Assembly: GCA_030272155.1 (NCBI GenBank)
Contig: CP126204.1
Span: 3,525,501-3,589,500 of the forward strand
DNA from: Tetradesmus obliquus
Taxonomy: Eukaryota; Chlorophyta; Chlorophyceae; Sphaeropleales; Scenedesmaceae
Length of the DNA: 64,000 bases
Direction: 5' to 3'
Position 1 is the stretch's first letter. Every line of letters begins with the position of its first letter. Positions 1 through 64,000 of the stretch are shown here, in pieces. Both the position numbers and the translations under genes were made by a program. The notes under the pieces were generated by a model. The model saw only the letters and a list, made by a program, of their open reading frames with translations, did no database searches and was not told where the DNA came from.

Positions 1-2
1 TA

Positions 3-195
3 GTGCGTGTCAAGGGCCCCTTTGCACTGGAGCTACTGCCCAAGCTGCCTCGCAAGCCAGCAGACGAAGGTCATGACCCTGGAGCCAACTTCGGACGGGA
101 TGATTCCAAAGCACCTGACAACCCCAGAGTGCGGCCACGTGTGATGCGCTGGGCTGGCAACCGCGGGGTAAGGTGCAAGTGGATGCCCACTGCAT

Positions 196-232
<37 letters not shown>

Positions 233-1561
233 CGCAAGCACCTAGAGCCCTGGTGCCTAATGCTGCTTGCTGTGTGCCGTTTGGCAGCAATGATATTTGC
301 ACTTGCCATTGTCTGTAGAGGTCGGCTGTGTGGCAGCTCTACAGTATTGCTCTGCTTGGGTTGCATCAGCTTGCGCACGTGCGCCTTGCATGCAAGGAAA
401 CTGTGCAATGCTGCATGCTTGCATGAGGCCGCAGCACCTGTCTCAAAAGCTAGCTGTACTTTCATTTGCAGTCAAGTTGTCGCGGTAGTGATTTGCTTTA
501 CTGCAAAACAGCTGCACGTTGCCAATAGATTGATGCGTTCAATGCTTGCAGGAAACGCTGTATGCTGACGTGTACCAGGAATGCGGTGGTCAGCTCACAG
601 CAGCAGAGGCGGCGGCTGTTGCGCGCTGGAGGGCAGCAACTGGCGGTGCAGCAGCACAGCAGGCAGCAGCAGCAGCGGAGCCGTGGGTGACTGAGCGGCA
701 GCTGCAGGAGTCAGGCATGCTGGACAACCCTTACCATGTGCAGGTAAGAGTGCTGGCTGGGGTGTATTCCAGAATCCTGTAGTGATCAAGGATTTAAAAG
801 GCAACAGAGTTTTAGAGGTTTGAGCAATTGGCTATTGGAAAAACAATGTTACAAGCATGCACAGCACATAGCACAGGGAACAGAAGAGCTGAGCAATTGT
901 GACCAGAACATTATGCACTCAACGCATGCGGAAGTGCTTCCTGCCTGTTGTCTCTCTTGACAGAAATATTGCACGTTGCATACATGATCACTTTTACTTG
1001 CACCAGATCAAGTGGTATGCTTGCAACGCAGGTGGAGCTTGGCCACACGGAGTATGGCCGCTTCGGCAGCCGCCTGCTGAAGCAGATCACCAAGGCTTTC
1101 TTCCCACGCATCCATGCTGCGCTGAAGCCTCTGGCAGCAGAAGAGACCAGCATGGGCGAGCAGGAGATTGACCATGATGGTGGGTGCTGGGTGAAGTCAT
1201 TTGTGGAATAAGTGCTTCTTATATGTCACACGAGGCATTCCTGTATGCTGCTGCAGAAGCAGCTGACACATCCTGCCACTCTCCTATGCGCATCACCGCA
1301 GGCTCAAAGAACAACTGCAGCAGATGGAAAGTCCAACGTTACACAATAGTCATGCAAGGCGGCGCACCACAAGATGGCAGGCATATGTGAGAGGCTGCAG
1401 CGCACAGCGCGATGCCGGGCTGTGTAACCTGCAAACGTGTGTGATTCCTTGGGCTAGTGGAGCAAAGCGTTGCTATTGTGCAGAAATGTCACATTACATG
1501 GTGTGGTGTATTGTTAAGAATGCTACTTCAGATCAGGTGGCAGTTTCTGATGCTGCTGGCC

Positions 1562-1605
<44 letters not shown>

Positions 1606-2948
1606 ATTCAGAGGCTGTGAGGGCGCTGCGGGCAGCCGTTGCATCAGACGTGGCGGACGAACAGAAGGCAGCTGCACATGAGCGCAAACGGGTGAGACAC
1701 ATACGCCACCTTGAACTTGCAGCATACAAAAACAGCTGCAGAGTTGGTGGCTATTGCTTGCACAGCTATTGGTAGATAAGCAGAAGGAAGCTGCACGCAA
1801 TGCAAGTGGGTGAGGCATGTTGTTACATGCTATAACATGTCTAATGATGACAGTGGCACTGCTGTGGAAGGCGGTGTTCAGGATGGGGTTTCAGGCAAGG
1901 GTGTAGTTGTGAGTGCTCTTGCCTCGGTGGTTGCTGCTGCTGCTGATGCGAGCATTCATGCTGCAGGCATGTCCTTATGTATGCACAGAGTATCATAATC
2001 AGCAGGAGCAAGACTGATTAAGCTAGTGCTTCACTGCTCACGCGCCCCTTTACCCCATCAGGGCATGCGCATTGCAATGCGTGCTGTTGACACAGAGGTT
2101 GCATGTTGCATGTGAGCATTCTGATCACATCCAACCCGAGTGGGCATCCAATATCATCCAACGCACTTGTATTGAAACAAAAGGTGTCACGGAACGCTTG
2201 GGTTAGTACCCCGCTTGCTGACCACGTGCTGCGCCGTGCTGTGTCGTGCCGTGCCATGCCGTGCTGTGCAGGCGAAGCTGTTGGTTGACGCCCAGGCTGG
2301 TGACAGGAATGCGCTGCTGCAGATCATGACAGACCAGACGGCTAATGTCTACGGTGAGTGTGGCTTCTTTGTGATGTGATGCCAAGTTATGTAAATAAGA
2401 GACGATTGATGTACATCACGTGCGTGTCAAGTCATGCATCAGTTGCTGGCAAGCAGTCAATAGCACAACAGCCCAAGCATGCTTGTCTTCAGTGGGTGGT
2501 GTGAATGTATATGACGGAGCTGCAGAAGCAAGGGGAGGCTGCAGCTGCTGACAGCAGGTGGTGTCCCTGCCGGAATCTCAGCTACATGGGAAGATGCACC
2601 TACGCACACTCATGAACTTGTTTTGGGGGGCACACCTAAATTCATCTATGCACTTTTTGTGCAAACATCGTCTCTTTACACATGGCTTTCCTCATGGACC
2701 TGCTGCAACACATGTGTGCCGCAGGGCGTGAAGACGATGATGACGATGACGAGCTTGATGACGATGACGAGGATGACGACGGTGATGACAGCGAGGGGGG
2801 CATGGGCTTCCTGTCAGCCATTCGTCATGGGCGGGCACTGGAGCTTGCAGCTCAGCTGGGCGTGAACGCCCAGGCTTCGAACCCTGGACCTTCAACGGGT
2901 GCAACGGGCCCAGGGTTCTTATATACTACATGTAGGGCAAGTCTGTAG
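3..2948 (+). CDS. 3' part of a six-exon gene, function not recognised, acidic C-terminus
   Basis: I join exons 3-167, 552-743, 1032-1179, 1612-1691, 2272-2353 and 2725-2948. All junctions are GT-AG and the phase carries through (0, 0, 1, 0, 1), which is the main support. The 5' end lies outside the window. The product begins with a Pro/Lys-rich stretch (ELLPKLPRKPADEGHDPG), then an Ala-rich helix, a segment LLKQITKAFFPRIHAALKPL, a charged helix EQKAAAHERKR, and an Asp/Glu block (2733-2800) followed by GFLSAIRHGRALELAAQLGV. I recognise no family. The last ~20 codons may be read-through of a lost boundary, so the stop at 2948 is less certain than the splice sites. A decayed copy of the 1612-1691 exon end with its donor lies at about 1785-1812. 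Confidence 0.55.
1569..1604 (+). repeat. (CTG)n tract just before a 3' splice site
   Basis: About twelve CTG units end in an AG acceptor at 1610-1611, directly before the exon at 1612. The same arrangement recurs at many introns in this window. Confidence 0.85.
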
Positions 2949-3510: not shown

Positions 3511-5671
3511 CGAGGAACCATCTGCCTGTCCCCTTGACAATCCCAAGGCCTTAATACCCCTTCTCAAGCATACTAACATCAGTCAAAACCAGCAGGTGCT
3601 GCTCCTCCTGCAGCAGACTTCGAAGCAGCTGCATGCAGCAATCACAGAGCACTGCGCGGCGCAGCTGCAAACAGTGCTGCAGATGCAAGATGTGCAGCAA
3701 GCTGCGGCTTTCTGCAGCTGGCTAGGCAAGCACAGCAGCTTGCTGTGCAGCTTGGATGTGCAGCTTATCAGCAGTGCTAGAACCAGCAGCACAGCCGACT
3801 GGTCTGCTGCAGTAGCTGCGCTAGCTGCTGCCTTGCAGGACGCAGCAACAGCTGATGCTCTGCACCTGCGGCAGTTCTCACTATGCGGCAGTCCTGCAAG
3901 TGTGGCCTTGCTGCAGGCATTGTCAGCTGCTCAGGTCACCCAGCTGACGCTAGATGTTGGGTTTGGTGCCAGCAGCAGCAGCAGCAGCAGCAGCATGGGG
4001 CCTTACCAGCTCTTGCAGGATCTAACAGCCCTGACAGCTCTACGCAGCTTGAGTCTGACTGGCAATGGCCCAGCAGCAGCAGCAGCAGCAGCATCAGCAG
4101 CAGCAGCAGCAGCAGAGGATGAAAAGGTGCTAGCACCACTGGCACGCCTGCAGCAGCTAACAGAGCTCAGCATGGGTCCAGCACGACCTGAGCAGCTGCA
4201 GCAGCTGCCACCCAAACTGCAGCAGCTGCATGTGGCAGTAGATCTAGGGTGCCATGTGCAGCGCATAGCGCAGCTTGCACGGTGGCTGGAGCAGCACAGC
4301 AGCAGCGTGGTCACTTTGCAGCTGGGGGGTGGGGGTGGCCTGCAGCAGCAGGCGCCGGGATGGGCAGCAGCGCTGTCAGCAGCAGCTGCACCAGGCAATG
4401 GCATGCTCGAAGCACCACCAGCAGCGCTGCTACAGCAACAGCAGCAGCAGCAGCAGCAGCGGTCAGTTTTGCAAGAACCTGGGGCTCCTTGGGCTCCCAT
4501 ACTGCGGCGGCTACAGCCCAGCTTGGTCAAACACCTGGTGTGCCCCGTTGACTTTACCAACGCAGCACAGATGCAGGCGCTGTGTGAACTGACAGGGCTG
4601 CAGTCCCTGTGGGTGTGTGAAGCCAAAGGCAGCTCGCACAGGTGGCCAGGCAACAAGGAGATGCTGCTGCCGCTGTCTGCTCTGCAGCAGTTGACTCGGC
4701 TGCGTTTGGAGTGTGTGCGCAAGGAGCAGCTGCCGCTGCTGCAGCTTCCGCTGCTGCAGCAGCTGCAGGTGGAGCTCTGTGGGTCAAGTATACTTGATGA
4801 GGCATCGCCACCTGCACACATATCTGCTTTGCAGGGAAGGAGAGCATTCAAATGTCCAGCAAATGTTGCGTATGGGGCAAACAGGCTGCAGCTGGGGCAC
4901 TTGACAGCGCTGCGGGTGTTGAGGCATGCTGGCCGCGGCAACTGCTGCTTGCAGGAAAGCGATGTCCTGCCAGCTGGCTTGCAGGAACTTGAGTGGGCGG
5001 GGCGCCAGGCCAGCTGCAGTATGCAACCAATGCTGGGGTTTAGTTATTTGCAGAAGCTGCATCTGGCATTTGTTGAGGCGCCTGCAGCGTGGCAGCTGCA
5101 GCAGCTAGGCAGCATATGCAGCTTGCAGGAAGTGGGGCTGGAATACAGGCGGCAGGCGCAGTGTAAAGCAGTAGGAGCGGCTGCTTGGCTAGCATTGCCT
5201 TTGAAGGCGCTTGTGTTTGAGCGTACAGCACAGTGTGTAGTGGAAGCAGGTGTGCTGGAGGTACTAGCGGAGCTTAGTGGGCTCACAAAGTTGAGCTTGT
5301 CGTGTTTTGACAATGCTGAGCGTGTGAGAACCGGCGCAACAGCAGAAGCAACCCTGCAGCAGCTTGCAGGAAAGCTGCAACAGCTCACTGCCCTGCGGAG
5401 CTTGTGCTTGACTGGTTTGAAGATGCGCCGCGTTTTTAGTATGCCAACGTATAACGCAGATGGTGTGCGCGCTCTTTTGGAGGCATGTGGTTCTCTGTCA
5501 CTGTTGACCGAACTGCTGGTGCAGCTGCCAGTGCTGCTCAGTTATGTGGATGAAAAGCAGGTTTTTCAGATGCAGCCGCTGCTGCCGCAGCTGCGGATGT
5601 CCAAGTGTGGAATGGTCAGGGGCCGCGATATTCGCAGCACGCAGCTGCTGCTGACACAGACCCCTCATTAG
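3449..5671 (+). CDS. Intronless leucine-rich repeat protein, possibly with a degenerate F-box-like N-terminus
   Basis: A single 740-codon frame. After a poly-Gln run (residues ~11-20) comes PLLKHTNISQNQQVLLLL, followed by a Leu-rich helix with LHAAI, which resembles the helical start of algal F-box-like proteins. From residue ~90 to the end there are irregular leucine-rich repeats (LTALRSLSLTGN, LQQLTRLRLECV, LSGLTKLSLSCF, LTALRSLCLTGLKM), interrupted by Ser, Ala and Gln homopolymers encoded by CAG-type runs. Such proteins usually act as protein-interaction scaffolds; no partner can be inferred. The frame ends at a TAG at 5669-5671. A second in-frame ATG four codons in (3461) is an alternative start. 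A truncated, broken copy of its 3' half follows at 5795. Confidence 0.8.
3478..3510 (+). repeat. (CAG)n coding poly-Gln
   Basis: An eleven-unit CAG run inside the LRR gene, read as Gln. Related runs at 3971-3994 and 4072-4117 are read as Ser and Ala. Confidence 0.9.
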
Positions 5672-5794
5672 TTTGCTGTCTCCCCTGCTGAAATGCAGAG
5701 GGACAGTTGCTCAGTATCAATGGGTTTGGTAGTTCAACTTTTTCCGCATAGCAGTGCTTGTGGGAGCTGCTGGTTGTTGAAGTTGCACCTGGTT

Positions 5795-6525
5795 TCTTTT
5801 TGAGCCACCTGCACCGTGGCAGCTGCAGCAGCTCGGCAGCGTCATGCATACGGTATGTAGCTTGCAGGATGTGGGTTGCAGTACAGGAGGCAGCCTGAGG
5901 CGCAGTGTACAGCAGCAGCAGCGGCTGCATGGCTGGCACTGCCCATGAAGGAGCCGATGTTTTTGCATACATGAAGGAGCATTGCTCGAAGGTGCGCAGT
6001 TGTGCACTCACCATGCCTCACCATGCCAAAAACTGTCAATTTATACAGCACAGTGTGTGGTCGAGGCAGGTGTTCTGGAAGTGCTTGGTGCGCTTACTGG
6101 TTTGATCAGGTTGAGCTTCACATGCTGTGGCAGCGCTGCATGCGCTGAGAGAGGTCTGCAAGCTCAATCGACGCTGCAGCAGCTTGCAGGAACAGTGCAG
6201 CAGCTCGCTGCGCTCAGGTGTTTGGGCTTGTCAAAGTTAAAGATGCGCGGCTGTTGTGAGTCGCCTGTTAGAGCTCCGAGCGCCACTGGCTGGCAGCGCA
6301 GTTGGTGTGCATGCGCTTGATGATGTGCATGCACTTGTTGCGGCATTTGATTTATTGTTGAAGTGACTGAGCTGCAAGTGCAGCTGCCGATCACGCTCCC
6401 AGAAGCAGAGCAGCAGCTTGGGAGTTTGCAGCAGCTGTTGCCGCAGCTCAGCTCAGTGCAGGTGTCAGAGTGTGGCTGGTATGCAGGCCACCGGCCTTGC
6501 AGCTGGCATTTTCCACCTAATCGAT
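5795..6525 (+). pseudogene. Decayed tandem copy of the 3' half of the LRR gene
   Basis: Aligns by eye with 5080-5600: both carry the words for PAAWQLQQLGS, then the poly-Gln/Ala stretch, then AQCVVEAGVLEVL, LQQLAG, LRCLGLSKLKMRG and a QLGSLQQLLPQL-like end. The copy is broken by frameshifts and by inserted sequence around 5965-6045, so no long frame survives. One segment stays open at 5982-6320. It is in the same orientation as, and directly downstream of, the parent gene, which indicates tandem duplication followed by decay. Confidence 0.75.
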
Positions 6526-8235: not shown

Positions 8236-11200
8236 TGCACGTCCGTCCTGCAAGTCTTTGTGCGACAGGAGCAGAGAAGCAGCAGCAGCGTGCTTGGCCT
8301 GTCCTGCAAGCGTCTATACGACAGCAGCAGCAGCAGCTGCAGCAGCAGCAGCTGCAGCAGCAGCAGCTGCAGCAGCAGCAGCTGCAGCAGCAGCAGCTGC
8401 AGCAGCAGCAGCGTGAATTGCCCTTCCTGCAAGCATCCACATGGCAGGCATAGGCTGCTTGCACAACCTGGTGTCGGGGTATGTGTTTCTCAGCATCTTG
8501 ACCACCAGTACAGTGTCAAGATGTTGCGGCAACTATGGAACAGCAGCAGAAGAAGCATCGGAGTGCAGTCCACAGGCAGCCAAGGCAGCTGACAGCACTA
8601 TGGTTCACATGCAACATGCAGTGTGTCAGCATCCTTAACATGTATGGTGCTGACTGTGTTCATTGCATCTCCAACATGTCATGTGTTCAATGCTGTACCT
8701 GCAGGTTGAGACGGACCCCAGCACAGTGAGTGGTGCAGCAGCAGTGCAGCTGTCACACAGTGTGGCCGTGTAAATACCGACTTGCTCTCTGGTTTCCTGC
8801 AAGGCAGCGCATGCAGAAGCCATGCACAGCAAACTCTCAACACAGCAGCAGCAGCAGCATTGTGTTGGAATGATGTCTTGTTAGTACAGCTAGTTTGTTG
8901 ATGCGCCCTTGCTCACATTCACTGTTGCTACAGCCTCGCATGGGGTCAGCGACTTCTGCATTATGTGCATGCTCTGCGCAGATGGACTTCTGCATTGTGT
9001 GCATGCTCTGCGCAGATGGACAAGACCCTTGTGGGATCGCCATTCCTGTACGCTGACAATGGCAATGAGATCGACGTGATTGAGTACTCACGGGTGAGAT
9101 GTGTTGCAGTTACTATTTGTTGCAACTAGGTTTTTTGGCACACTCAAACATAGATAGGCTATGATTCAACAATGCTGCTGATTTAAATGCGCCTTGCATT
9201 TGTCTGCCCATGCTGTGCCAGCTTCGCATTGCGTGTGACACAGCGTGGTTGGTGGCGCTGCTGCGGCATGTGAATGACCCCATTCTATGCTGCCGCTGCC
9301 GCTGCTGCTGCTGCTGCTGCTGCTGTTCTGCTGCACACCAGTGGAATTTGCCAGAGATTGAGAACAGCCAGTTTGTGCTGCAGCCGTATACTTTCCAAGG
9401 CTCAACAAAGCGGTACAACCAAATAGGTGAGCCATGGTATACCTACGTAGGCCTGCCAAGTACATATTGTCAGCTGAATCTGAGGGAAACTCTGCTGCTG
9501 TGTCAAGCAGCTCAAGCATGTTTGCGGCCAAGCAGTTTCCAGACAGTTCGAATTGTTCCAGGGGCAGCGACAGGGAACGAGTCTCACTAGGCACCTCCCA
9601 TCTCAGCCAGATTACTAGCCATTGATGCCGTCATTTCAAGCCACGGCGAAGTGCCGCATCAACCCCATCAATAATATGCATTCTTCTGATCAGCACGTCG
9701 CCTTCTTGCATGCCGCAGCCGGCTCCTGCACGGCCCGCATGCGCTGGTCTGGCACCAGCCTGCACAAACCAGCCGCAGGTCTCCGTACCGCTGTAGAGAA
9801 CAACACATGCAATTCGTGTCTTGGTTGCTGCAGGCGGCTCCTACACGGCCCGCATGCGCTGGTCTGGCACCAGCAAGCCCAGTGAGGTGCTGTTTGAAGC
9901 GTGGAGCCCCTCCGGCACCTTGGTGGCCAGCTGGGCAGCAGAGAGTGAGTGGCACATGATCAATCTCACAGCACAGATGCCTGTTGTGCTGTTCATATGT
10001 TGCCTTTTTATGTTGCTGTTTTATGTTGCTGTTTGAGGCGTGGAGCCCCTCCGGTGCCTTGGTGGCAAGCTGGGCGGCAGAGAGTGAGTCGCCTTGCGGA
10101 ATGCATTGTGTAGACACCTGCTGTGGGGTTCATGTGAGGCTGTAATGTGTTTAGCTTTACGTAGCTGTTTGAGAGTAGCTGTTTGAGATGTGGAGCCCCT
10201 GTGCCGCCTTGGTGGCCAGCTGGGCGGCAGAGAGTGAGTCGTCATTGCTGTTTTCACTGGATTTCTGCGTACGTCATGTGGTCCGAACGCACCGATGTGT
10301 TGGTGTGCATCACGCTAAAATGGATGGACGCTTTTAACGCCTGTTCGCATAGCTGACGCTGCCTCAATGAATCCGACATCCTTGCTGCTGCTACTGCTGC
10401 TGCTACTGCTGCTGCGCTGCCACTGCTGCTGCGTTTGCTGCGGCTGCCCTTCCCTGCCGCAGACGGCACTAACTTTTTGCCTTCGCCGGAGCGCGTGCAC
10501 ATCAACCACTGGATCTTCAAGCCTCAGGGCATCTCCAACCCGCTGCCTGCCGGTTTTGGCAGCTCGCTGTTCTCACTGTCCTGCTTCAAGCACTGCCCGC
10601 TGGGCGATGCCAGCTGCACGCCGATGGGAGTGATGCCATCCTGCGCAGGGGGTGGCGTTGTGCCGCCTCCTCCAGCCCCAAGGTGCGTTTAGGTCAACAG
10701 TTTGGATGCAGACAGCAAACATCAGGCATGGGATGTGCATGGAGTTGCTAGCTTAAGATGCGGCACTGTTTAACTGGTCACTGTATCAGGTGGCGTGCAG
10801 TAGCCCAGTGTGTGCTTGAGTATTATCAAACTTGGTTCAATGCCCGCTGGGCAATGCCAACTGCACGCCAATGGGAGTGATGCCATCCTGCACAGGGGGT
10901 GGCGTGCAGCCTCCCCCAACCCCAAGGTGGGTTGAACCTAGTAGGTCAACAGCTGGATGTGGACACTAAATGTCTGGCTTGGGCTCTGCGTGGAGTTGCT
11001 AGCCTATGATGCAGCACTTGTGGCATATGGCTACTCTGGTAGGTGGCGTGAAGTAGCCCAGTGTGTGCTTGATTACCATTGGCTTCAAGCACTGCCCGCT
11101 GGGCAATGCCAACTGCACGCCAATGGGAGTGATGCCATCCTGCACAGGGGGTGGCGTTGTGCAGCCTCCTCCAGCCCCAAGGTGGGTTGAACCTAGTAGG

Positions 11201-12097
11201 TCAACAACTGGATGTGGACACTAAATGTCTGGCTTGGGTTCTACGTGGAGTTGCTAGCTTATGATGCAGCACTTCTGGCGTATGATTACTTTGGTAGTTG
11301 GCGTGTATGTAGCCCAGTGTGTGCTTGAGTACTATCAGCTTCGTCCACTGCCCGCTGGGGGTGCCAGCTGCACGCCGATGGGAGTGATGCCATCGTGTGG
11401 GTCAGGTGGCGTTGTGCCGCCTCCTCCAGTCCCAAGGTGGGTTAGGTCAACAGTCGGATGCAGACACTGAATGTAGTAGCTGTGCACTGCTCAGTCACCA
11501 CTGCCAAGTGTGGCACCCAATCAAAATCAAACGAGCAAGACACCTGCAGCTGCCATGGAAAGACATGCAAACAATTATGCTGGGAAGGCTGATGCTTGCG
11601 TGCTGTGCTGCTTTGCCGGCGTGCAAACCCCAACTCACAATATGCAAACCCGCTTTCCATCCCTCCATTTGCCTGTCTGTCACCGCTCTTGTTTCAACAG
11701 CAGCCCAAACCCCAGCCCAAGCCCCAGCCCCGTCCCTCTCCCAACTTTCACGCCCACCCTCGCCCTCAGCTTCACCACCAACAAAAACAAGGGCACTAAG
11801 ACCTACACTTGCACCGCCAGGCTCACCGTCCAAGCCACATCCGGCGGCCAAACCCCAAGCGGTGTAAACCTCAACTGGAATTGGTCAACTCGCTTTTCTG
11901 TGGCTAACTCAGGCTTCCCTTATTCTGGGCTTGGCAGTACATCCAGCAGCGGAGTATTCAGCAGCACAGCTCCCCAGAGTGGCGTCATGTCAGCAGCAAC
12001 GGGTGGATGCACGTTCTCAGTGGACAGCGTTGACCTGGCTGGCTGGCAGCTAGCGGCAGGTGTGCAGCTGCCTTTGAAGGTCTCTCAGGCGTGGTAG
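7169..12097 (+). CDS. Secreted GH16-like glycosidase with Pro-rich linker and C-terminal Ig-like domain
   Basis: Model: 7169-7427 (perhaps with an in-frame intron 7271-7318), an exon starting near 7910 and ending at 8147, microexon 8705-8725, 9016-9093, 9342-9426, 9834-9944, 10463-10682, 11701-12097. Phases agree from 8147 onward; the start of exon 2 is unresolved. Residues 1-27 form a signal peptide (hydrophobic VAVLLLLALQ). The middle has the jelly-roll signature of GH16-like proteins: GPGPNYF, CGEVFLDRSLGLGDYIFT, then EIDVIEYS, an intact ExDxxE catalytic motif, and FVLQPYTF. A Pro/Ser linker leads to a C-terminal domain with YTCTARLTVQATSGG and GGCTFSVDSV, typical of an Ig-like module. The family hydrolyses or remodels beta-glucans or galactans, so a role at the cell wall or matrix is likely. 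Introns are loaded with partial exon copies. Confidence 0.7.
8152..8234 (+). repeat. (AGC)n tract at the start of an intron
   Basis: Starts four bases after the donor at 8148 in the GH16-like gene. Interrupted CAG/CGG units. Confidence 0.85.
8321..8412 (+). repeat. Compound CAG/CTG tract with PstI-like CTGCAG period
   Basis: Repeats of a 15-base unit (CAGCAGCAGCAGCTG), about six copies. CTGCAG at each joint makes the tract locally self-complementary. It lies in the second intron of the GH16-like gene. Confidence 0.8.
8705..8725 (+). other. 21-nt microexon of the GH16-like gene
   Basis: Encodes VETDPST, flanked by AG and GTGAGT. It joins GDYIFT to MDKTLVGSPFLYAD in phase 0, and the joined words fit the family's conserved order. 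Confidence 0.65.
9713..9762 (+). repeat. 5' echo of exon 9834-9944
   Basis: A copy of the acceptor and first ~45 bases of the exon (words for GSCTARMRWSGTS), 121 bases upstream of the real exon. It has lost its downstream half. Confidence 0.75.
10023..10237 (+). repeat. Two 3' echoes of exon 9834-9944
   Basis: Copies at about 10030-10084 and 10177-10235 repeat the last ~60 bases of the exon (LFEAWSPSG..LVASWAAE) plus the GTGAGT donor. The second has lost the SPSG wording. Both lie downstream of the parent. Confidence 0.8.
10828..11436 (+). repeat. Three 3' echoes of exon 10463-10682
   Basis: The last ~90 bases of the exon (CPLGDASCTPMGVMPSC, Pro-rich end, AAG with donor GT) recur with exon ends at about 10924, 11180 and 11434. 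Spacing is roughly 244-256 bases, so flanking intron was copied too. Confidence 0.85.
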
Positions 12098-12439: not shown

Positions 12440-14630
12440 CCTTGAGCTGTACGCACTTGGTGCTTTGTGGCGCAGCAGGGGCTGCTGGCGGTGTGCTGAG
12501 GCAGTCAGTTGTGCAAGGTGGCTCTTCAGGGAAGGATTCTTGCGACTGGCACATGTCGACCAGACGCAAAGGGGAAACAAACCTCAAGACTCATGAGACG
12601 ATTACGGGCCAGCTGGTTTGTGTGGCTGGTGGGATCCGCATGTGCGGCATGCATCTGGCTGGCTGCAGCAGCACCCTGGGGGTTGCGGTGTGATTTGAGC
12701 AAAAGACAAACAGCTGGCAGCACCATGCTGCTGCGTGCGTCATGCTGGTGGCTAGTATTGCCAATGGACTGCCTGCATCAACAGCGGCAAAAGATATACA
12801 ATACACCATATGGGCGTGCCTCTGTGTGTGGGTTGTGTGTGGAAGAGCGGGGCAGGGGTTGCTGGAATGACCTGTACGCTGGGCTTGAAGCTGAGGTCAT
12901 AAGAGGCTGGCACATGCACCATCCTTACAATTTGTTTGACGTTGGCGCAATTGATCAATTACGAGCTTGCTGCTTTGTGTGCACCTCCCCCTCCTCAACA
13001 CTGGCAGCGGCTTCCATCTCAGGATACACATGAAGAGCGCAGCTGCACGCTAGCATGCGGCACGTCTGCAGGGTTAGAGGTTGCAGTTTGTGGTCACTTG
13101 GTTGCACTTGGGTTTGGGAGGTATCTGGCATGCACCACACCTGCATGCGACACGAACTGTGGATGGCTTGTGGCGTTCAGGGACACCAGCCAGTTGTTTT
13201 CATGAAATGCTTTACCAATTTGTGCTTTACTGGCTCTTGCTGTGCAGCTGCATGCGACAGTCATGTGATCCTGCCCTCACAGCTTTACAATTTAAAAGTC
13301 ACAGTCAAACTGCGGATGGTCCGCAATGCGCGGCTGAGCCTGCCTGCGCTTGCAGGGGTTGCTGCTGCATGCCTGCCTGCTCCCTGTTCCCAGTGCAAGC
13401 GCTTATTGCAGGGGTTGGCGTTGCATGCCGCCCTGTTTGCACTGCAAGCAGCAGTCAATCTCATTCGCATGACGCTGCCCGTCAGCGTGTGACACCTCAG
13501 TCACATTTGGTCATTTGGTCATACATGAGGCACCTTACTGTTGTTGTACATTTATAATTTTTCAGTAGTAAGTTCATCTGACGTGGACAACTGAAGGCGA
13601 CAAGCAAGCGAGGGCGCCGGGGGTCGAGCCTGCGACCCAAGGATTTGAAGGCCGGTGCCCTGGGACTTTTAGTCAGGACTTTTAGCCGACTTTTAGCACT
13701 TTTACCACAAGTCCGGAGGGTAGTCGACACCGAGGCACCTTACTGTTGTTGTACATTTGTAAGTATACACCACAGCACGGCACTTGGCCTGCTGCTTACA
13801 TGCCACTGTTGTTTTCTACGAGTACTTTGTCTTTACACACTGATCAGAAGCTGCCGTTGACGTCACCTTGCGGTCAGGCGTGCTGTATGCTGCCTATGCA
13901 TGCCAGAGGCCAGCCAGCTGTTGTTTTGGCACTTGAGAACTGTTGATTTGGAGGGGTTGTGGTGTAGTGTGCTCCCCTGTGTGCTTGTGCACGGCAACCG
14001 AAACAGCCAGAGCATCCTGGCTACCTTTGTTTCCTCTGCTTTGTTTGCTGTCTGAGACGCTGTCTTGAACCGTTGGACGTGCCTGCTAGCTGCCTGCAGC
14101 AGTGTACTGCAGATGCAATGCCCTAGGTACATGCCATCTTGACTGAGGTTGTAGCAGCACAGTCTACACGCATGCCATAGCTATGATGCGAAGGTTACCT
14201 CACGGTGGCTGTATAGCCAGCCTATATATATGCATGATGCAAAGGTGCTATTTTGTTGGTGGCAGCTGACATTCACTGACGGCGTTAGTTTGTGCCTTGT
14301 GACAGTCGACAGACGCTTGTCGTGCATCTTGTGGCAGGTGCAGCATGCCAACAGCTGTTCACGGTGGCTGCTCGATCTGAACACGCAGCAGCACTTGATG
14401 AAACTGCTAAGCACGGTAGTACCGCACTGCCTGGCGCTCACGGCATAGCAAGATTTTGCACTCATCATCTTTACACCTGCGCACGGCCAACAATATCATG
14501 CCACTGAGCTCACCACGACCTACCCTCGAACTTTGAAAGGCAGCAATGCCTGCGTCAGAACCAGTTTTTCCATGTCTAGCTTGCAGACCGCAGCAAGCAC
14601 CTATCGAGTCTCCTCTACACAACAGCCGGC
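12440..14630. other. Intergenic region without supported genes
   Basis: Short frames only, none with family similarity or splice logic. 13600-13700 holds a GC-rich inverted motif (GGGTC ... GACCC) followed by four spaced copies of a word built on ACTTTTAG. Two copies of a ~27-base word, centred on CACCTTACTGTTGTTGTACA, lie at 13531-13557 and 13734-13759. Confidence 0.4.
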
Positions 14631-14637
14631 GCTGCAA

Positions 14638-14828
14638 CCCACCCCGTGCAACGCCTAGCGCCGCACAGGCGTCAGCTTCTGCCGCTTGCTGCTGCGCCTT
14701 CCAATAGCACTGCCGCCTCCCGGAGGTCCCATAGTATGGTCCCCCTGCTGCTGCTGCCGCTGCTACTGCTGTTGGTGCAGCCATGCCGCCAATGCCTAGC
14801 ACGTCCCTCCCAAACTGCTCCTCACGCA
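14638..14828 (-). pseudogene. Duplicated 3' end fragment of the HOS1-like gene
   Basis: Matches 18081-18275 in the same orientation, about 3.4 kb away: both encode EE-FGRDVLGIGG, an Ala-rich run, then GRR and a basic end. Indels break the frame after GTSGRR. No upstream exons accompany it, so it is a transplaced fragment, not a gene. Confidence 0.75.
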
Positions 14829-15116
14829 CCGCCAATGCAGTGTACAAGTGCGCACCGCCGGCCAGACAAGGCCACAGCATACCATCTGACACGACCCTTG
14901 CTAGCAAACATGCTGGCAGCTGCTTTCTAGTTGATATGCTTTGAACATGCGTGCAAAAAAATCATCTGAACAACGTGCACCTGAAGAAGTGGCAACTTGA
15001 AGTCGCTGCCGTTGAGCTGACGCGCAGCCTGCCAGCTGTGCTGACGCCTGCGTCCTGAAAACAAGCCTAGCCACTTTCTGGCTCCTCATGCACTGCAAAG
15101 AATGTGACGTCCTCTC

Positions 15117-17860: not shown

Positions 17861-18096
17861 TGTGCCATAACAGAGCGGCCTGCCTTGCAGCTTTGAAAGC
17901 AAGTTATGACTCCACAATAAGCAAGAACAGCCATGGTCCACAGCATCACACGCTGCCGAACCTCCGATCACCACCACTTCCACACCGAGGCCGCCTCAGT
18001 GTATGCGGCATACATGCATACCTGCCGCTGCAATTGGCCATAAGCAGCCTGTGCCATGCAGCGTTGCATGCAACACGCTGCACCCCGCCACAACGC

Positions 18097-41215: not shown

Positions 41216-41435
41216 GTGTAGCGTGGCGTGTTGTCTGCATCACACATGCGCATGTAAATATGTCTTTAATAGCTCTTCTGCTTGACCCTGACTAACAGCA
41301 CTGCTACTGCTGATACCTGTGCCTACCTTCCTGCATGCCATGCTGGTGTTGCACGTGAGTCATCCCATCACATGAGCCACGCCAAGGCACAGTCCAACTA
41401 CAACCTGGCAGAACCCCTTCAGACGATCCAGAACA

Positions 41436-41830
41436 TGGTGAGCTTGTGCCGCATCTTGCCCACCCAGAGCAGCAGCTTGTATAGCACAGCTAAGGTGTGT
41501 GCAGTGGTATGGCGTGGCGTGCGACGCTTGCTCCCTGTTGCTGCTCTAGGGAGTGTGGCACATCTTGCCCACCCACAACAGCAGCTTGTGTAGCACAGCC
41601 AAGTTGTGTGCAGTGGTATGGCGTGGCGTGCGGCACTTGCTCCCTGTTGCTGCTCCTGGGAGTGTGGCACATCTTGCCCACCCACAGCAGCAACTTGCGT
41701 AGCACAGCTAAGGTGTGTGCAGTGGTGTGGCGTGGTGTGCGGTACTTGCTCCCTGTTGCTGCTCCTGGGAGTGTGGCACATCTTGCCCACCCACAGCAGC
41801 AACTTGTCTAGCACAGCCATGTTGCGCGCA
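41436..41830. repeat. Related ~109-bp minisatellite subfamily
   Basis: Just under four units with landmarks CATCTTGCCCACCCACA, CAGCAGCTTGTGTAGC and GCAGTGGTATGGCGTGG. Spacing between matching points is 109 bases (for example 41497, 41606, 41715). Confidence 0.88.
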
Positions 41831-42049
41831 GCGGGGTATGATGTTCTTGAGTGACACAATCCGCAACCTGCCAGCGGTCACAGCTCCTTCTGTGGAATGC
41901 ATACGCGGGTCGCCAACCTGTATTGTATTGTTTTTCATCAACTTTCTTTCTGTCCCTGACACTAACTGCTACTGCTGGTGCATTTGCCTGTCTTGGTCTG
42001 GTCCCTACATGGGCTGCACCTGAGTCGGCTCAACTTAAGTAATGCCAAG

Positions 42050-43195
42050 GCGACGCAATGTGTGTATTACCAGGCACGGGGCATTTAGACATAGATGCTG
42101 ATTATGATTCTCTATCTGGAAACTGCAATCTCACTCTGGACAAACCAAGCATGAGGTGCGCTTCAGCAGGCAGCCAACAATGTTGTGTGCACGCGAATCG
42201 GCGCACCGTGCTGTGCTGTGGTTGTGCATGTGCAAGCGTGTCCGGCTGACAGGCTAGCCTGCTTGTTACAAAGCATGCAACCCGCGCAACCAGCATGCTC
42301 CTGTCCGCCCTCCCCGCGGCAGCGTTGCCGCTTGAAGATCAGCGTATGCATCGCCAGGCGCGCTCATGTCACCACATGGCCGCGTGCTTCAATGCATACC
42401 ACGCATCACCCACCAAAGCTGCCATTGCCAGGCCAAGGTATCAGGAGTCCCACTCCGGAGTGGATCAGCATGGATCCATGACAGACTTTAGTCTGGCAAC
42501 AGCAACACACACTGGCAGCGCCCGCTGCTTCACGATTTGTGTGTTACACGACGGGAACACAGCCCGTTTTCGAGCCAATGACAGGCTCATTGGGCAACCA
42601 CCTGATCCATCAGCCATCCACTGGATTCGGCCAGTTACTCTAGCGCATTGGCAAGCTGCACTATGGCAAGCAGCCCCTAATCCTGACTACACGTACAACA
42701 GCCCTCCTCCGCTTAGCCACTGCACGGCATCCTTCTGCATCGTCAATTTCAAAGCTCCTCCAGTCAAACATGGTCAACACATTGCGCCCAGCAGACTTGG
42801 TGATACTAAAACAGGTTGACGCAGGAGGTTCAGCCATGGTGCTTTGGGGGGGCGCCAACCAGCCATGTGAGTGCGCATTAAGTTGCATTATGCTTCACTG
42901 CAATGTCTTTTGGCTGCAACTCATAATAAAGACGCCACTCGCTGTCCTTTGAAGTTTACCAACCACGCAAGGCCACACAGGCACACCCTGCAAGCAGCAG
43001 CTGCCATTGGCACGGCCCTTCCCAATAACATGCTGCTGCAACTCATCACTTCTTGGCGTACTGGATGCTGTCTCGCTTCTGGCTGACGCCGCCTGGCTTC
43101 TGCTTGGCTGCCTTGCTGCGTGCCAGCTCGGGGGGCACCACCGCCTTGCTCTGCCCACACAGTCAAACCTGGTCAACGCACTGCACCTGGCAGAC
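42050..43195. other. Region of small duplications, no firm gene
   Basis: A minus-strand frame at 42661-42834 starts MAEPPASTCFSITKSAGRN and has protein-like wording but no splice partner. Another minus segment, 43130-43050, reads ELARSKAAKQKPGG to DSIQYAKK and stop; its last ~30 bases recur at 43397-43440. Plus-strand words around TGGTCAACACATTGCGCCC at 42770 recur at 43168. These look like remnants of one or two genes broken by duplication. Confidence 0.3.
42515..42645 (+). repeat. Dispersed repeat, copy 1
   Basis: ~125 bases starting TCACGATTTGTGTGTTACAC. The reverse complement occurs at 52258-52366, about 90% similar by eye. Read on this strand it encodes TICVLHDGNTA.F.A.DRLIG. Confidence 0.75.
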
Positions 43196-43286
43196 ACTAA
43201 TTACTAATTACTAATTACTAATTACTAATTACTAATTACTAATTACTAATTACTAATTACTAATTACTAATTACTAATTACTAATT
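43196..43286. repeat. Perfect heptamer array (ACTAATT)13
   Basis: 91 bases, thirteen exact copies, AT-rich inside GC-rich DNA. It grows out of a GACACTAATT word that is part of a small local duplication. Confidence 0.97.
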
Positions 43287-47893: not shown

Positions 47894-49771
47894 ATGGTGC
47901 GCCTCACAGTTGCTGGGCCTCCAGATGGACAGCCACCTCGTGTCATTGAGGTGGATGATCCGCTGTCATCGCCTGCTGAGCTGATCGTCACCAGCGAAGT
48001 GCCGATCCAGAAAGCAGGCATCACCAAGTCGGAAGCCAGGGAGCAGGCAGCCATCATCCAGTGAGTGGCGCAGGCAGCAGCAGCAGCAACAACAGCAGCA
48101 GCAGCTGGCTCTATTGCCAGGCAGAGGCAGCTGCAACAGCGGTCGCAGTGGCAGCAGCAGGCCCAGGCGGCATGCGTTCGCGAGCGGTTGGCTGCAGTCG
48201 CCAGCAGCAGCAGCAGCTGTCGTTTCGTTTTCCTGGATGTTGCAAGGTGGTAAAACTTTAGCATCAACAGTCACAAACTGCTCCCATGCTGCAAATGTGC
48301 ACTTCACCACATGCTTTGTACCTCAAACCATGTGAGCAAAGCGTTCGGCGCGTGCAAGTGTGCATCGTGCAGTCTCACTCAGCCGCACTGTGTGAGCAAC
48401 TACTGTGCACTTGCAGCGCTCAGAGAGGCAAAAACATCCCCCCGATCAAAGAACTCCTCGCTGAGCCAAATGTTTCAGGTGTATTGTTGCATGATGCTTA
48501 CTCACTCAGTGGTGCTGTGCGCTTTACTGTGCACCTGCAGGGCTCAGCGAGAGGAGATCACCAGCCTGCGCAGGGCCCTGGCTGAGACGCAGGACGTGAT
48601 GTACAAGGGCAAGTCGGCTTACAACGACGTGGTGCAGACCAAGGACATGCAGATAGCACAGGTGCGCACACACAGCTGTGCAGCGGCGATTGCAAGTAGC
48701 TTGGGCTGCTGTTCCCTGCAAGTCAGAGTCATCTGACAACTACGCCCCACCCATTCCTGTGCGCCTGCTCACGTTGATGAGCAGTAACTCCAGCTGGTGC
48801 AATTGCTCCCGCGTTCTGTATTGCTGCTGTCGTGTCGTTCTATCATTGTTATTTGCCGTTGCTTCTGTACTAGCTTGTGACCAGCTGCGTGTGCGAGCGC
48901 CGACACAGTCGGGCCTGTTCTCTGACCAACCATTGCTGTCTTTTGTGCTGTTCTCACAGCTGTATGAGCTCGCAGCAAGCGGTGTACGTGAGCGCGCCCG
49001 CCTGCGGCAGGAGCTGAGCGAGATGCAGCAGGAGATGCAGGGCACCAAGCGCAGCTGCCTTCCTCAACTGCAAGTATAGATGCTGTTCTGATGTTGCAGC
49101 TGCAGAAGCTGGCGGCCAGCTGCGTGCGCGAGCGCCACCTCTTTTGAAACCAGCTCATTCTCCCTTACTCACCAGTTGGTTTGGCCGTATCCACCCCTGC
49201 ATTGCAGCTGTACGAGCTTGCAGCAAGTGGCGTGCGTGAGCGTGCGCGGCTGCGGCAGGAGCTCTCTGAAATGCAGCAGGAGATGCAGGGCACCAAGCGC
49301 CAGCTGCACGCGTTCATGGCCAGCCTGATGCAGCTCAAGAACAGCATGGACAGCGCAGGGGATGGCGACATGGAGCATGCGCTGGAGCTGCTGCAGGCCA
49401 GCAGCTGGACGGCCAGCCTGCAAGGTGAGTTTTGGGTGTTATGTTTCTTTATGTTTGCTGTTGGACGGCAGTTTGGATGGTGACATGGAGCACGCGCTGG
49501 AGCTGCTGCAGGCCAGCAGCTGGACGGCCAGCCTGCAGGGTGAGTCTGAGATTTTATGTGCTGTTATATCTGCCGCTTTATCTGTTATCTGCTGTTACGC
49601 TGGGACGGGGACATGGAGCATGCACTGGAGCTGCTGCGGGTCAGCAGCTGTTAGCCGTTGACCGTCGCTGTGCCTTGACCGGCGCCATGCATTGACTAGT
49701 GCTGTGAGTTTGACCAGCCGCAGGCTGGCAGCCAACTGCAGGCGGTTTTCTGCATCACTGCTGACCTCTCT

Positions 49772-52257: not shown

Positions 52258-52366
52258 TCATGGTCACTGGCCAATTCCAGTGGATGGCTGATGTAGTGGT
52301 TGCCCAATGAGCCTGTCATGGGCTGGAAATTGGGCTGTGTTCCCGTCGTGTAACACACAAATCGTG
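52258..52366 (-). repeat. Dispersed repeat, copy 2
   Basis: Inverted relative to the 42515-42645 copy. It shares TCACGATTTGTGTGTTACAC and the following ~100 bases with small indels. Confidence 0.75.
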
Positions 52367-52547
52367 ATTGACCCAGGTTGACCAGCCCTTTGGTGCTTTA
52401 ACAGCGCTGTCATATCATGTATGCACACGTTGGTGGTTTGTGGCATCGACAGGCCAGCATTGCTGCACACAGCATGGCATTTGCTCAGATCGGGTGCCAC
52501 CAGTGAGACCTGTATGGTGTCCCGCTTTATCAACAACAATCAACAAC

Positions 52548-54868: not shown

Positions 54869-57800
54869 AGCTGGTGCAGCTTGGTCATCTGCTGCAACAC
54901 CTGCAGCTGCTGCTGCTGCGAGGCCGTCTCCTGCTGCTGCTGCTGCTGCTGGTATCAGCCAGAGGTAGCTCCCTGACATGAGATCCAGCAGCAGCCGCTG
55001 CCCGCTGATGACCAGCCAGGTGTGCCTGGGCCTCAGCCCGGCCTCAAACTGCGCATCCAGATCTTCAACCAGGGCTTTGCGGGCCGGCAAAACCTCGTCC
55101 CAGGCCCCTGAACCCTGCTGAACCCCGGACGCAAAACCGCCGGCGGCGGCGGCGGCAGCGGCTGCCGCGCCAGCTTCTGCTTTGAGAGCTTCCTTCGAGG
55201 GCCGTGCGGTGCTTCTGGTGAAGTTTGCGGTGAGCAGTGACTGCAGGAGGTGGTCTGCTGCTTGGCGGTACATGAGTGCGGTGCTGCCGCTGTGCACGAG
55301 GTAGGAGGGCGCGTAGGGTGACATGTGGCGCGTGATGAACAGCTGGCGGTCAGTGGCGGGCAGCCGCATCGTCTGCAGCGCAGCAAACAATCATACAAAA
55401 AATCAGAAAGGTAGGTACAAGAGCAGTAGGTAGGGGTGGGGATGACATGTGGCGGGTGATGAACAGCTGGCGATCAGTGGCTGGCAGTGGCATCGTCTGC
55501 AGCGCAGCAAAACAAACCAAAGAATACAAAAAATAAAGACCAGAAGTACGGGGTGGGTGGGCGCGCAGAGTAACATGTGGCGGTTGATGAGCAGCTGCCG
55601 CTCTGTGGCTGGCAGCCCCATGGTCTCCAGTGCAGCGCATCAGCCCCAAAACATATAGGGACAGTAGGTACAAGAGCAGTACGTGCAAGAACAGTAGGTA
55701 GGGGCGTAGGGTGACATGTGGCGGGTGATGAACAGCTGCCGATCTGTGGCCGGCAGCCGCATCGTCTGCAGCGCAGCGCATGAAACACAAGACAGAGAAA
55801 ATCAAGACCATGATCAGGGGTGGGTGGGTGGGCGCATAGGGTGACATGTGACATGATCAGGGGTGGGTGGGTGGGCGCATAGGGTGACATGATCAGGGGT
55901 GGGTGGGTGGGCGCATAGGGTGACATGTGACGGGCTAAGCGCAGCTGGCGCTCTGCGGCTTGCCGAACTGAAGCAAGCTGCTGCTGCTGACGCTCAGTAC
56001 ACTCAACTACAACCACACCAAGCTCACCAGAAGTGGACAGCCCTTGCACTGGCAACGGTCCACACACTGCATGGAGGAAATAGATAGGCTGACACCCCAA
56101 CACTGCAAGCCCGCACCTCGACGACGTAGCGGTCAATGGTGTTGTTGATGGTGCCACGGCTCCAGGCGGGGTTATACGGGATGCCATACAACATTAACAA
56201 GCAACTAAACCCTGCAGCAAGACGTGCTAAACCCAAGCCCGCACCTCCACCACATATCGGTCGATGGTGTTGTTCACGGTGCCGCGGCTCCAAGCAGGGT
56301 CGTACGGGATGCCGTGCCGCTCACAGAACACAGCCTGCGTCTCCGACATGGCACAAACCAGGCAGCAGCTGCTGCACGCTTTTCAAACCACGGCACACCA
56401 AAAATACCTCACCAGATTTCCTCACTCCCAGATTTGACATGGTGAGGCGAACCTGCAGGAAACGGATGTGCTAACAAAACCATCATGGTCATGGCATGAC
56501 GACCCACCTCCACCACGTAGCGGTCGATGGTGTTGTTGACAGTGCCCCTGCTCCAAGCAGGGTCGTATGGGATGCCGTGCCGCTCACAGAACACGGCCTG
56601 CGTCTCCGACATGGCCCTATCGCGCCACTCCATGCCTGCCTCGCGCAGCTGCGCGTCCATGGGGTGGGCTGCTTTGACCCAGGCCTCCGCCAGCAGCTGT
56701 AGCAGCAAGGGTGTAAGAGACAGGACATAAGTGACGCAGCTCTCGTTGAAAAAGGTCACGAAGTGAATGCCAACTTTGCGGAATGGCTGTGTTCATATAC
56801 GCCCGCCTCGCGCAGGTGGGCGTCGTTTGGGTGGGTTGCTGTGACCCAGGCCTCCGCCAGCAGCTGCAGCATCAAGGTTGCAAGAGACGCGGCACATGTT
56901 ATGCAGCTTTGAGATGAAGATGATTGATGGTGATTGCCACATCACAATATCGCCTGTTTGTATAGCCGCGCAGGTGGGCGTCCATGGGGTGGGCTGCTTT
57001 GACCCAGGCTTCCGCCAGCAGCTGCACAAACAGGGGCATACGCACCAGGCGCAGGCGTAAGAACACAACGGGATTGTTAAGCAGCACTGACTGTAGGACT
57101 GTTTCATGAAACAGTGCCTGGCAGTAAAGCGTGTAGGTATGCCTGTTGATCCATGACCGCCTCGCGCAGGTGGGCATCCATGGGGTTGGCTGCGTTGACC
57201 CACGCCTCCGCCAGCAACTGCAGCACCAAGAGTATGACGTGACATGCAAGGTACAACAAGATGACAACGCGGCTTAGGCAGAGACTCACACTCAGAGGGT
57301 GATACGCCACCTTGAGCAACAACAGTCAGCCATGTGAACACTAGTGCCAGTCATGTACCCCCGCTCACCCGTGCGCCAGGCTCCTCATCGTGTGCCCTCG
57401 TGCCCGGCAGCGGCGACAGCTGTCCCAGCCCCTCCTCTATTTCAGGCACCGCCGGCCTTTTTTCGATCAGCCTATCCCACTGTCCAACCCAATTGCGTTC
57501 TTGGACGCAAAACCACCCAGTCAAACTGAATGTCATCAAACAGCAAATGACAGGTGTTCTCAAATGTGTCCTCAAATGCAATCAAGCATCGCTCACCCTG
57601 TGCGCGCTGCAGGCTTCTCATTGGCTTGCCGCTCGTGCCAGGCAGCGGCGACAGCTGCCCCAGCCCCTCCTCTATCTCCGGCACCCAGCCACAGCAATTT
57701 TTCTTAGTCAGCCACAGCACCAGCAGCCCAGTCATGTTGGCTCCCACAAAAACCAGCCGTTCAACTCAGCTGAACTTCACCAACAAGTAAACTCCAGATG

Positions 57801-62436: not shown

Positions 62437-63695
62437 TCAAGCCCTGGGCTTGAAAAACACCCTGTGCAGCAAGCGCTGCATTGACTGGCCCGGCTGCAAG
62501 CTGCCGCTGCGACTCGCATCCAACTCCATAGAGCCCAGCCCCACAGAGCTCAGCGGCGCCAGCAGCCCATCTAATGCCTCCTCTTCCTCATCTATGGGGC
62601 CCATTCTCTCGCTCCAACATGAGCCTGGCTGGTGCCCATCATCCTCATCTACCGCCACCTCATCCTCATGCTCTCGCATGTCACGCTCAGGGATGGTGTG
62701 CGGGATGCTGAGCATGCTGACCACGGCATCATGTGGCAGCACGTCGCCCCAGCCCTTGTCTGCCTTGCAGGAGAATAGGATCAGCCGCACGGGCTGCAGG
62801 AAGGCCCCCTTGGTGCAGTTGCTGCAGGTGCAGTATGTTTATGGTGCGCATGGGCAGCGCCGGGCAAGCGATGTGATTAGCAGTCAGCAGTGTGGTGGCT
62901 GACAAGAGTTGCTGGTCTGTGCGAAAGGTCCTGTAATGTCAACGGTGCTGCACAGGACGGTGCATATGCAGCAGCGCCTAACTATGTCTGATGTGGTGAG
63001 CAGTGGACCTGCAGCTACAAGGATGCCGCGCGTTGCTCTTCTTCTGGTGCGTACCTGGCAGATGGGATGGTATAGGCGCCGGCGTAGGGGAACATCAGCC
63101 AATCCCCATCGCGCAGGCGTGGCAGCTGCATTAAGCAGCAGGTACACATGCATAGGATCGGCAAACAGTTGGCAGAGCTGATCAATCTCTCTGCTTGCAG
63201 GATTATCACATGTGGCAGCGGACAGCGACAGTAGGAGCGCCTTGAACTGCACTGCACAAGCGAGGAGGCACACAGCAGACCCACGTCAAGTACATTACAT
63301 TCCATTACATTACATGCTCCACTCAACGAGGAGTGGGAACCCCAGTCAGGAGCCAACGAGAGGCTCATAGGGGGAGGAAACATCGAAGAACAACGAAGAA
63401 CAACAAGTACAGCGGAACCAACTACGTCACCAACTCTCATCACACGACAAGCCGCACACGCACACATACATATATGTGGCTGCACCTGTGCGTGTGCGTG
63501 GATTGTGTCGTGTTCCTTGCCGCTGGTGCCCATCAGCCTGCTGCAATGCAGGGACTCAAAGTGCTCGAAGGGACTGCCTTTGGGGTTGGCTCTGTGTGCC
63601 GCTGCTTCTTGCGGCTCCGCCTGCTCAAAGTCAATGACTGGCAGCAGCGGGTTGCGCAGTACCAGGGGACGCGGCTCCATGTCATAAACCACCAC
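62437..63695 (-). CDS. C-terminal part of an ornithine/diaminopimelate-decarboxylase-like PLP enzyme
   Basis: Exons 63695-63486, 63125-63055 and 62821-62437; phases 0 and 2 agree. Earlier exons should lie further right, past the window edge or unrecognised. The middle exon reads LPRLRDGDWLMFPYAGAYTI and joins to PSASNCTKGAF, which matches the C-terminal beta-barrel of fold-III decarboxylases (GDW ... GAYT). The exon before it (VVVYDMEPRPLVLRNPLLP) fits the strand ahead of the active-site loop. Where ornithine decarboxylases have a GPTCDGLD loop I read GSPFEHFES without the Cys; either it lies in a missed exon or the protein is a non-catalytic relative. The C-terminal ~90 residues are acidic (EHEDEVAVDEDDG), an extension not usual in the family. 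Confidence 0.45.
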
Positions 63696-63749
63696 CTGCT
63701 CAGCAGCAGCAGCAGCGGCAGCAGCAGCAGCAGCAGCAGCAGCACCAGG

Positions 63750-63792
63750 CGACTGGGCTCTATGTCTCAAAGCACCACCTACTCAACAGCAG
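63750..63792 (-). repeat. 5' echo of exon 63695-63486
   Basis: A broken copy of the acceptor and first ~30 bases (GAG.AGGTGGTG, then ACATAGAGCCC) about 80 bases upstream, with in-frame stops. A CAG/GCA tract lies between. Confidence 0.65.
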
Positions 63793-63799
63793 CATCAAT

Positions 63800-64000
63800 A
63801 GCAACAGCAGCACCAGCAGCAGCACCTTACACAGAACGACATGAGAGGTTGCAACCACCAGGTATTCCAGCTGCACTAGGCAGGACAGCACTGCTACAGC
63901 ATGATGCTACAGACCATCGAGGGCTTCCCACATTGCAGCAGCCAAGTGCATGTAGACCAGCGTGAATAGCATCATCAGCAGTAGATGGCTAATGGACATG
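63800..64000. other. Right edge, probably intron
   Basis: No coding wording on either strand. CAG-rich words at 63786-63825. Likely intron of the decarboxylase-like gene. Confidence 0.3.

Follow-up and report, generated by a model that had tools for sequence, protein, structure and literature searches.

Truncated direct copies of exon borders in the introns of the green alga Tetradesmus obliquus

Exon-edge copies at the isomerase locus

The window analysed here is a 64-kb stretch of the Tetradesmus obliquus genome (CP126204.1, 3525501–3589500) from assembly GCA_030272155.1, which PMC12571836 lists at 104.70 Mb in 17 scaffolds with 56.5% GC alongside a second T. obliquus assembly of 17 scaffolds, GCA_030272055.1; the genome sequence used here comprises 104.66 Mb in 17 contigs. 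Its introns contain truncated direct copies of the edges of nearby exons, hereafter echoes: a 3′ echo repeats the donor end of an exon and a 5′ echo its acceptor end. They are well illustrated by the isomerase gene (enoyl-CoA hydratase/isomerase family) at 33336–35930 on the plus strand, whose four exons assemble into a protein that matches the T. obliquus hypothetical protein OEZ86_008691 at 100% identity over 272 aa. The open reading frame (ORF) of exon 2 matches Pfam ECH_1 (E 1.1e-12), the only clear match in a Pfam scan of 20 window ORFs; hints below the cut-off point to GNAT, a helicase and an IS66 element. All other gene names used for the window are labels from an earlier sequence-only reading, which gave no per-gene coordinates.

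All three isomerase introns contain echoes. In intron 1, exon 1 (33336–33522, placed by identity of the assembled protein) is followed by one 3′ echo at 33716–33804, 91% identical to 33436–33524 at a distance of 280 nt and with the GT of its donor cag|gtaag kept, and exon 2 is preceded by two 5′ echoes, an older one at 34150–34243 (86% identical to 34463–34556, AG kept) and a younger one at 34294–34390 (95% identical to 34461–34557) that carries an in-frame TAG. Exon 2 itself spans 34465–34739, its start being set by protein identity where the gene finder gave 34482. In intron 2, the donor end of exon 2 recurs as a 3′ echo at 34812–34879 (93% identical to 34675–34742), which keeps cag|gtgtgt and has no visible intronic homology, together with two 5′ echoes of exon 3 that both keep ctgcag, one at 34989–35071 (86% identical to 35276–35358) and a second at 35125–35186, read directly and lying within the alignment of 34937–35648 with 35075–35764. 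Exon 3 (35281–35409) and exon 4 with its stop (35703–35930) are likewise fixed by protein identity; between them, intron 3 contains one 5′ echo of exon 4 at 35578–35648, 96% identical to 35694–35764 and followed by TAA, and, seen by eye only, a weak copy of the 3′ end of exon 3 at about 35479–35515. Echo sequence is found neither in OEZ86_008691 nor in its 90% identical relative P0002, the source name of which resembles a transcript-assembly accession; the isomerase protein uses full exons only, fitting the use of the outermost splice sites.

Distribution of echoes and intron length

The main sample comprised 304 kb, namely the window, one 50-kb block and 19 random 10-kb pieces (20 were drawn, one being entirely N). 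A satellite-like array at 37400–41850 of the window, built of ~109-bp units with higher forms of 70, 179 and 288 bp, was left out of all border and repeat-pair counts save one specified below. Exons were predicted by a two-strand gene finder self-trained on the sequence, whose starting splice models were consensus sites set by hand and whose later models stayed half tied to these preset sites; its splice consensus converged to cag|gtgag and tgcag|g, of which the start model lacked the t-g ahead of cag. Before counting, 58 echo-like predicted exons were removed, leaving 251 good exons.

A local direct echo was found at 60 of the 415 internal exon borders and an inverted one at a single border (acceptors, 31/217 direct and none inverted; donors, 29/198 and one). 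Among 140 mid-exon pieces, 12 had a local direct copy and one an inverted copy. Echo-bearing borders amount to 17/55 in the window versus 43/360 in the rest of the sample. The presence of truncated exon-edge copies in introns is thus confirmed, but the sequence-only reading overstated their reach in assigning them to nearly every spliced gene: among genes with at least two tested borders, a strict threshold finds at least one echo in 6 of 11 in the window and in 20 of 48 in the whole sample.

The sides on which the copies lie agree with that reading. Acceptor echoes stand upstream of the exon in 46/53 cases and retain AG in 40 of the 44 aligned upstream, and donor echoes stand downstream in 45/54 and retain GT in 34 of the 41 aligned downstream, counts that are not independent, since one border can have up to six echoes. 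In nine genes supported by Pfam (seven outside the window) or by homologues (two within it), 29 of 86 borders bear an echo and 46 of 47 echoes obey the side rule (acceptor echoes upstream, 25/26; donor echoes downstream, 21/21); an eighth peptide in the Pfam scan, a fragment of one of the seven genes, gave no match. The side rule is a matter of geometry: if the full exon is retained after a duplication over its donor, the second copy can only be downstream. The predicted copy of a terminal exon after its stop is also present on the plus strand, where 5048–5440 is repeated at 5774–6261 with 71–74% identity, past the ORF end at 5671.

Self-BLAST of the window with low-complexity sequence hard-masked (soft-masked alignments ran through CAG repeats) returned 72 pairs outside the ~37–42 kb satellite, 70 direct and two inverted. 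Sixty-seven of the direct pairs are less than 5 kb apart, three of them at the satellite fringe, and every interval assigned to one of the earlier gene names holds direct pairs, 2 to 20 each. The inverted pairs are separated by 9.7 and 27 kb; the nearer, 42530–42638 / 52263–52367 (89% over 109 nt), is possibly a dispersed element. Across the 304-kb sample, repeat pairs less than 1.5 kb apart number 234 direct versus 7 inverted; the very high copy number claimed earlier is supported. The one count to include the satellite, which covered 60 kb of the window and the 20 random pieces of 10 kb, the all-N piece among them, gave 291 direct versus 6 inverted within 1.5 kb. Repeat coverage of the readable 10-kb pieces ranges from 0 to 49%, showing that repeat density is very uneven along the genome. 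No echo was seen at the 61 borders tested in pieces L010, L014, L020 and L024, or at the 23 in L015, L016, L023 and L028.

Introns between good exons have a median length of 590 nt with echoes (n = 24) versus 254 nt without (n = 128), in line with the earlier proposal that echoes contribute to intron growth. An echo is carried by 23 of 40 introns of at least 400 nt and by none of 36 introns shorter than 200 nt, a contrast that is partly trivial because an echo needs room. Echo insertions account for 14% of all intron bases sampled and for 34% of those in the 11 window introns. The mean length of echo-free introns, 283, is similar to that of four other green algae in Table 1 of PMC5966456 (230–302), which gives T. 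obliquus a mean of 462 from an automatic annotation of another assembly. A good part of the length of the longer T. obliquus introns is explained by echoes. A null model of random duplication, with coding-disrupting cases lost, places 61% of the survivors across a border, so targeting of borders is not required.

Uneven decay and the origin of echoes

Recent pairs, defined as adjacent pairs at least 90% identical (n = 123), share a similar block with a median of 50 nt; the copy distance is 90–139 nt in 54 of them, and 10 are adjacent or overlapping. Predicted exons are overlapped by at least 30% in 69 of 98 recent pairs and not at all in 26, figures to be set beside the 61% of the null model. 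Some blocks classed as non-exonic may belong to exons that the gene finder missed, as is probably true of the pentapeptide gene at 26.1 kb.

Within a duplicated unit the exonic block resists decay and the intronic half does not, a feature missed by the sequence-only reading. Identity is 0.871 in the exonic and 0.696 in the intronic part of 85 exon–echo pairs, and 0.839 and 0.693 in 63 echo–echo pairs, the non-homologous baseline being 0.630; compared border by border, echo–echo similarity is higher on the exonic side in all 24 cases (p = 1.2e-7). In pairs with both halves alignable, the exonic part has diverged roughly half as much as the intronic one (median ratio 0.57, taken from per-event rows and medians with pooled figures set aside, some rows being spoiled by overlapping array copies). 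Scores of in-register intronic flanks pass the 95% point set by kind-matched controls in 32 of 84 pairs, where 4.2 would be expected, and the flanks of the other pairs also lie above these controls (p = 1.4e-4); against a same-locus shifted control, 17 of 85 flanks exceed the 95% point and the rest give p = 1.3e-7. This residual homology argues that the duplicated unit once included intron. Homology over the whole unit is visible in some events, in pieces L019 and L011 and at 10583–11474 of the window.

Two loci are suggestive as to how the blocks stay alike. One is a composite duplication of 514 nt at 19903–20776 (minus strand, HOS1-like gene), a case picked after the fact; it contains an echo–echo block (19942–20043) identical to its copy at 100/102 positions versus 216/255 elsewhere (p = 8e-6), that is, a near-identity block inside an older, more diverged duplication, as gene conversion would give. 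At L011:2627–2959, a 59-nt block stands in three identical copies with identical spacers, which looks like a recent unequal crossover between an exon and an older echo. The echoes are under no reading-frame constraint: 27 of their 29 indels have lengths not divisible by three, and in-frame stops number 6 versus 9.6 expected under neutral drift (range 4–16, P = 0.11). The copies are truncated, have one splice site each and do not keep the frame, unlike the whole, open exons flanked by two splice sites of exon duplication or mutually exclusive exons, a reading that was rejected. Uneven decay without frame constraint is suggestive of conversion anchored in the exon, or of unequal crossing over.

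We consider it probable that small local duplications survive at exon borders, with their exonic blocks refreshed and the introns lengthened. An earlier proposal, local duplication over one exon–intron border after which the full exon is still the one spliced, is supported by our data. Such duplications, presumably products of repair, arise widely in this genome, with a net insertion mostly of 90–140 nt and up to several hundred. Those within coding sequence or over a whole exon would mostly be purged by selection, and those over one border would persist as echoes, donor copies downstream and acceptor copies upstream, because the original exon remains intact while the outermost splice sites are used. 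An echo is a half-exon that exon-definition-like recognition probably passes over because it has only one splice site, and it then drifts free of the reading frame. Its exonic block stays recognisable longer because the exon is constrained and, presumably, because the copies are renewed by conversion or by unequal crossing over with an anchor in this block; the intronic half decays, and the net outcome is a longer intron. Duplicated splice sites and exon sequences were reportedly the subject of classical work by Reed and Maniatis in 1986, and the vegetative cell of T. obliquus is generally taken to be haploid.

Several results weigh against this account. The exons are mostly ab initio predictions, and with echo insertions subtracted the echo-bearing introns are still longer (median 322 versus 254, p = 0.005). 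The spacer of recent pairs has a median of 76 nt, so the copies are seldom cleanly tandem; of the 98 spacers 25–300 nt long, 12 are of low complexity and 32 resemble a flank, leaving 54 of the 86 non-low-complexity spacers unrelated to either flank. Under plain duplication with neutral decay, 53 of 55 pairs should still have visible homology in their flanks, yet only 18 do, in a test with a self-alignment flaw at short distances and exonic lengths that may include self-matches. Ascertainment by exonic similarity inflates the exon/intron contrast, the excess of third-position differences given below goes slightly beyond what is expected when a neutral echo is compared with a constrained exon, and conversion is read from identity contrasts, not seen directly.

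Ordinary tandem duplication followed by neutral decay, with no conversion and with the constrained exon alone keeping the blocks visible to ascertainment, would be in keeping with an exonic divergence about half the intronic, yet it sits poorly with the echo–echo contrast at every one of the 24 borders and with the HOS1-like composite duplication, and we regard it as unlikely. The block edges speak for another route, exon-bounded copying, whereby an exon edge and a few intronic bases are copied, via RNA or exon-templated repair, together with unrelated filler: of 56 recent blocks compared free of annotation, 33 have their edge 0–9 nt beyond a strong splice site versus 5.7 expected (the 56 being those with a site of score at least 5 among 66 without a flank-matching spacer), and the short median block, the many unrelated spacers and the distance peak at 90–139 nt point the same way. 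In-register flanks above controls, even in pairs without individual signal, and whole-unit homology in L019, L011 and 10583–11474 run counter to it, however, as do the 21 of 60 spacers that match their direct neighbourhood; exon-bounded copying is disfavoured, and we hold it to be distinctly unlikely. That transcript-templated (RNA/cDNA) repair or conversion, or splice-site-bounded copying, refreshes the echoes and seeds introns with exon fragments seems to us very unlikely.

Selection on the echoes as alternative exon parts, splice decoys or regulatory half-exons would fit the lasting similarity of exonic blocks and splice consensus, and also the differences by codon position (6.5, 6.8 and 15.7%), the third position being 2.4 times the others. 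However, most of the third-position excess is accounted for by changes in the real exon, nearly all indels break the frame, and stops are not significantly fewer than under neutral drift; retention of AG (91%) and GT (83%) is little above the ~76–81% expected from per-site identity, with an alignment rule that favours kept sites. Selection is disfavoured and appears highly improbable, and the frame-breaking indels leave the proposed use of echoes as a source of new coding exons unsupported. Assembly artefact, a worry raised earlier, can be dispelled almost entirely: no support for it was found, and although the 100% identical L011 copies alone would be ambiguous, the pairs are almost all direct and in register with exons, and only 8 of the 234 are at least 95% identical with 191 at 65–95%, which makes an artefact extremely improbable.

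Other candidate sources were rejected. CAG/CTG runs as a trigger found no support, runs of at least four occurring in 20/98 spacers versus 16% of matched segments, and in 33% versus 38% around the loci. Only 1 of 60 spacers is an inverted local copy. A dispersed element or introner was also set aside, the spacers giving 112 local matches and 23 weak non-local ones in the 304 kb searched, the latter from 8 of the 60 spacers and 11 of them from a single CAG-rich spacer. For AGGT (Rogers-type) intron gain, both ends of 340 predicted introns were compared, and a score of at least 14 was reached in 2/340 at each end; the sole two-ended candidate, L021 4153–4278, is better read as an acceptor echo with ctgcag before gaggtgg in both copies.

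The kinds of event are already known; what is new is how densely they occur at exon borders, how much they contribute to intron growth and how unevenly they decay. Among the matches listed in open-licence literature on Tetradesmus genomes, intron gain or expansion and partial exon duplication, no title or abstract start described exon-edge echoes, and the words "intron" and "tandem" are absent from PMC12571836. Double-strand-break repair in rice yields 10–1000 bp insertions of tandem, partly tandem or non-tandem copies with a source at most 200 bp from the break (PMC7407515, citing Vaughn and Bennetzen 2014). The T. obliquus copies likewise derive from nearby DNA, but they lie at exon borders, which we read as an effect of survival, are long kept and have exonic blocks that resist decay. 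AGGT tandem-duplication intron gain (PMC3443670; potato, PMC4974935) also ties duplicated exon sequence to splice sites, yet it makes a new intron inside an exon (PMC3443670), whereas in T. obliquus existing introns grow. Repair-mediated proximal duplication in vertebrates (mean 162 bp, donor within 5 kb; PMC2671141) similarly copies nearby DNA, but that study excluded copies within 50 bp as tandem and found one copied exon inverted, whereas the T. obliquus copies are almost all direct. Introners (PMC9860276) share a large effect on introns genome-wide but are dispersed similar elements, whereas T. obliquus spacers and echoes match their own locus. The echoes offer a countable, sequence-visible route of intron growth in one lineage with intermediate stages preserved, as well as a natural experiment on splice-site choice, in which duplicated donors and acceptors are initially identical and the outermost pair must win. 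If exonic blocks are truly refreshed, echo genes would serve as a naturally occurring assay of gene conversion over very short distances.

Other genes and repeats of the window

In the coiled-coil gene (plus strand), an exon at 49208–49424, placed by tblastn of the homologue P0122, is preceded by a 5′ echo at 48957–49052 that keeps ttctcacag, and is followed by a 3′ echo at 49475–49545 (96% identical to 49360–49430, ag|ggtgag kept) and a further partial copy at 49602–49650. The homologues P0121 and P0122 match both 48957–49052 and 49208–49424, and the stretch concerned occurs once in each. The HOS1-like exon (20688–20792, minus strand), a label unconfirmed by Pfam, has downstream 3′ echoes at 20455–20556, ~20154–20224, 19942–20043 and 19329–19383. 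On the plus strand, the exon labelled GH16-like at 10463–10682 has 3′ echoes at 10880–10952, 11132–11188 and 11387–11454, and a second GH16-like exon at 9834–9944 has a 5′ echo at 9704–9766 and 3′ echoes at 10034–10092 and 10190–10239. Four further cases lie on the minus strand: the gene labelled lumen pentapeptide-like (26130–26331), where the block 26130–26184 recurs at 26277–26331 with 89% identity; the GNAT-like gene (30361–30689; Pfam match below cut-off), an array of ~110-nt units in 2.8 copies; a predicted exon of the helicase/decarboxylase-like region (56508–56696) with three acceptor echoes (56814–57233) and two donor echoes (56114–56294); and an acceptor echo at 44446–44495 of the disordered-protein exon 43712–44389.

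Repeats of other kinds were also seen. A direct pair at 14630–14835 / 18076–18282, 3.4 kb apart and 85–87% identical, encodes a similar GIGG-containing stretch in both copies and is a larger local duplication of gene parts. A perfect heptamer array, (ACTAATT)13, occupies 43196–43286. The ORF at 28548–29168 on the minus strand, which we take to resemble the C-terminal part of a tyrosine recombinase, gave only a sub-threshold IS66 Pfam match, and no local direct repeats occur at 27.5–29.3 kb. Outside the window, L023:1–2646 contains a 1.2-kb direct duplication (98.8% identical, distance 1456), far larger and younger than the echoes, and several groups of near-identical histone genes lie at 0.37–0.65 Mb of G000:C9.

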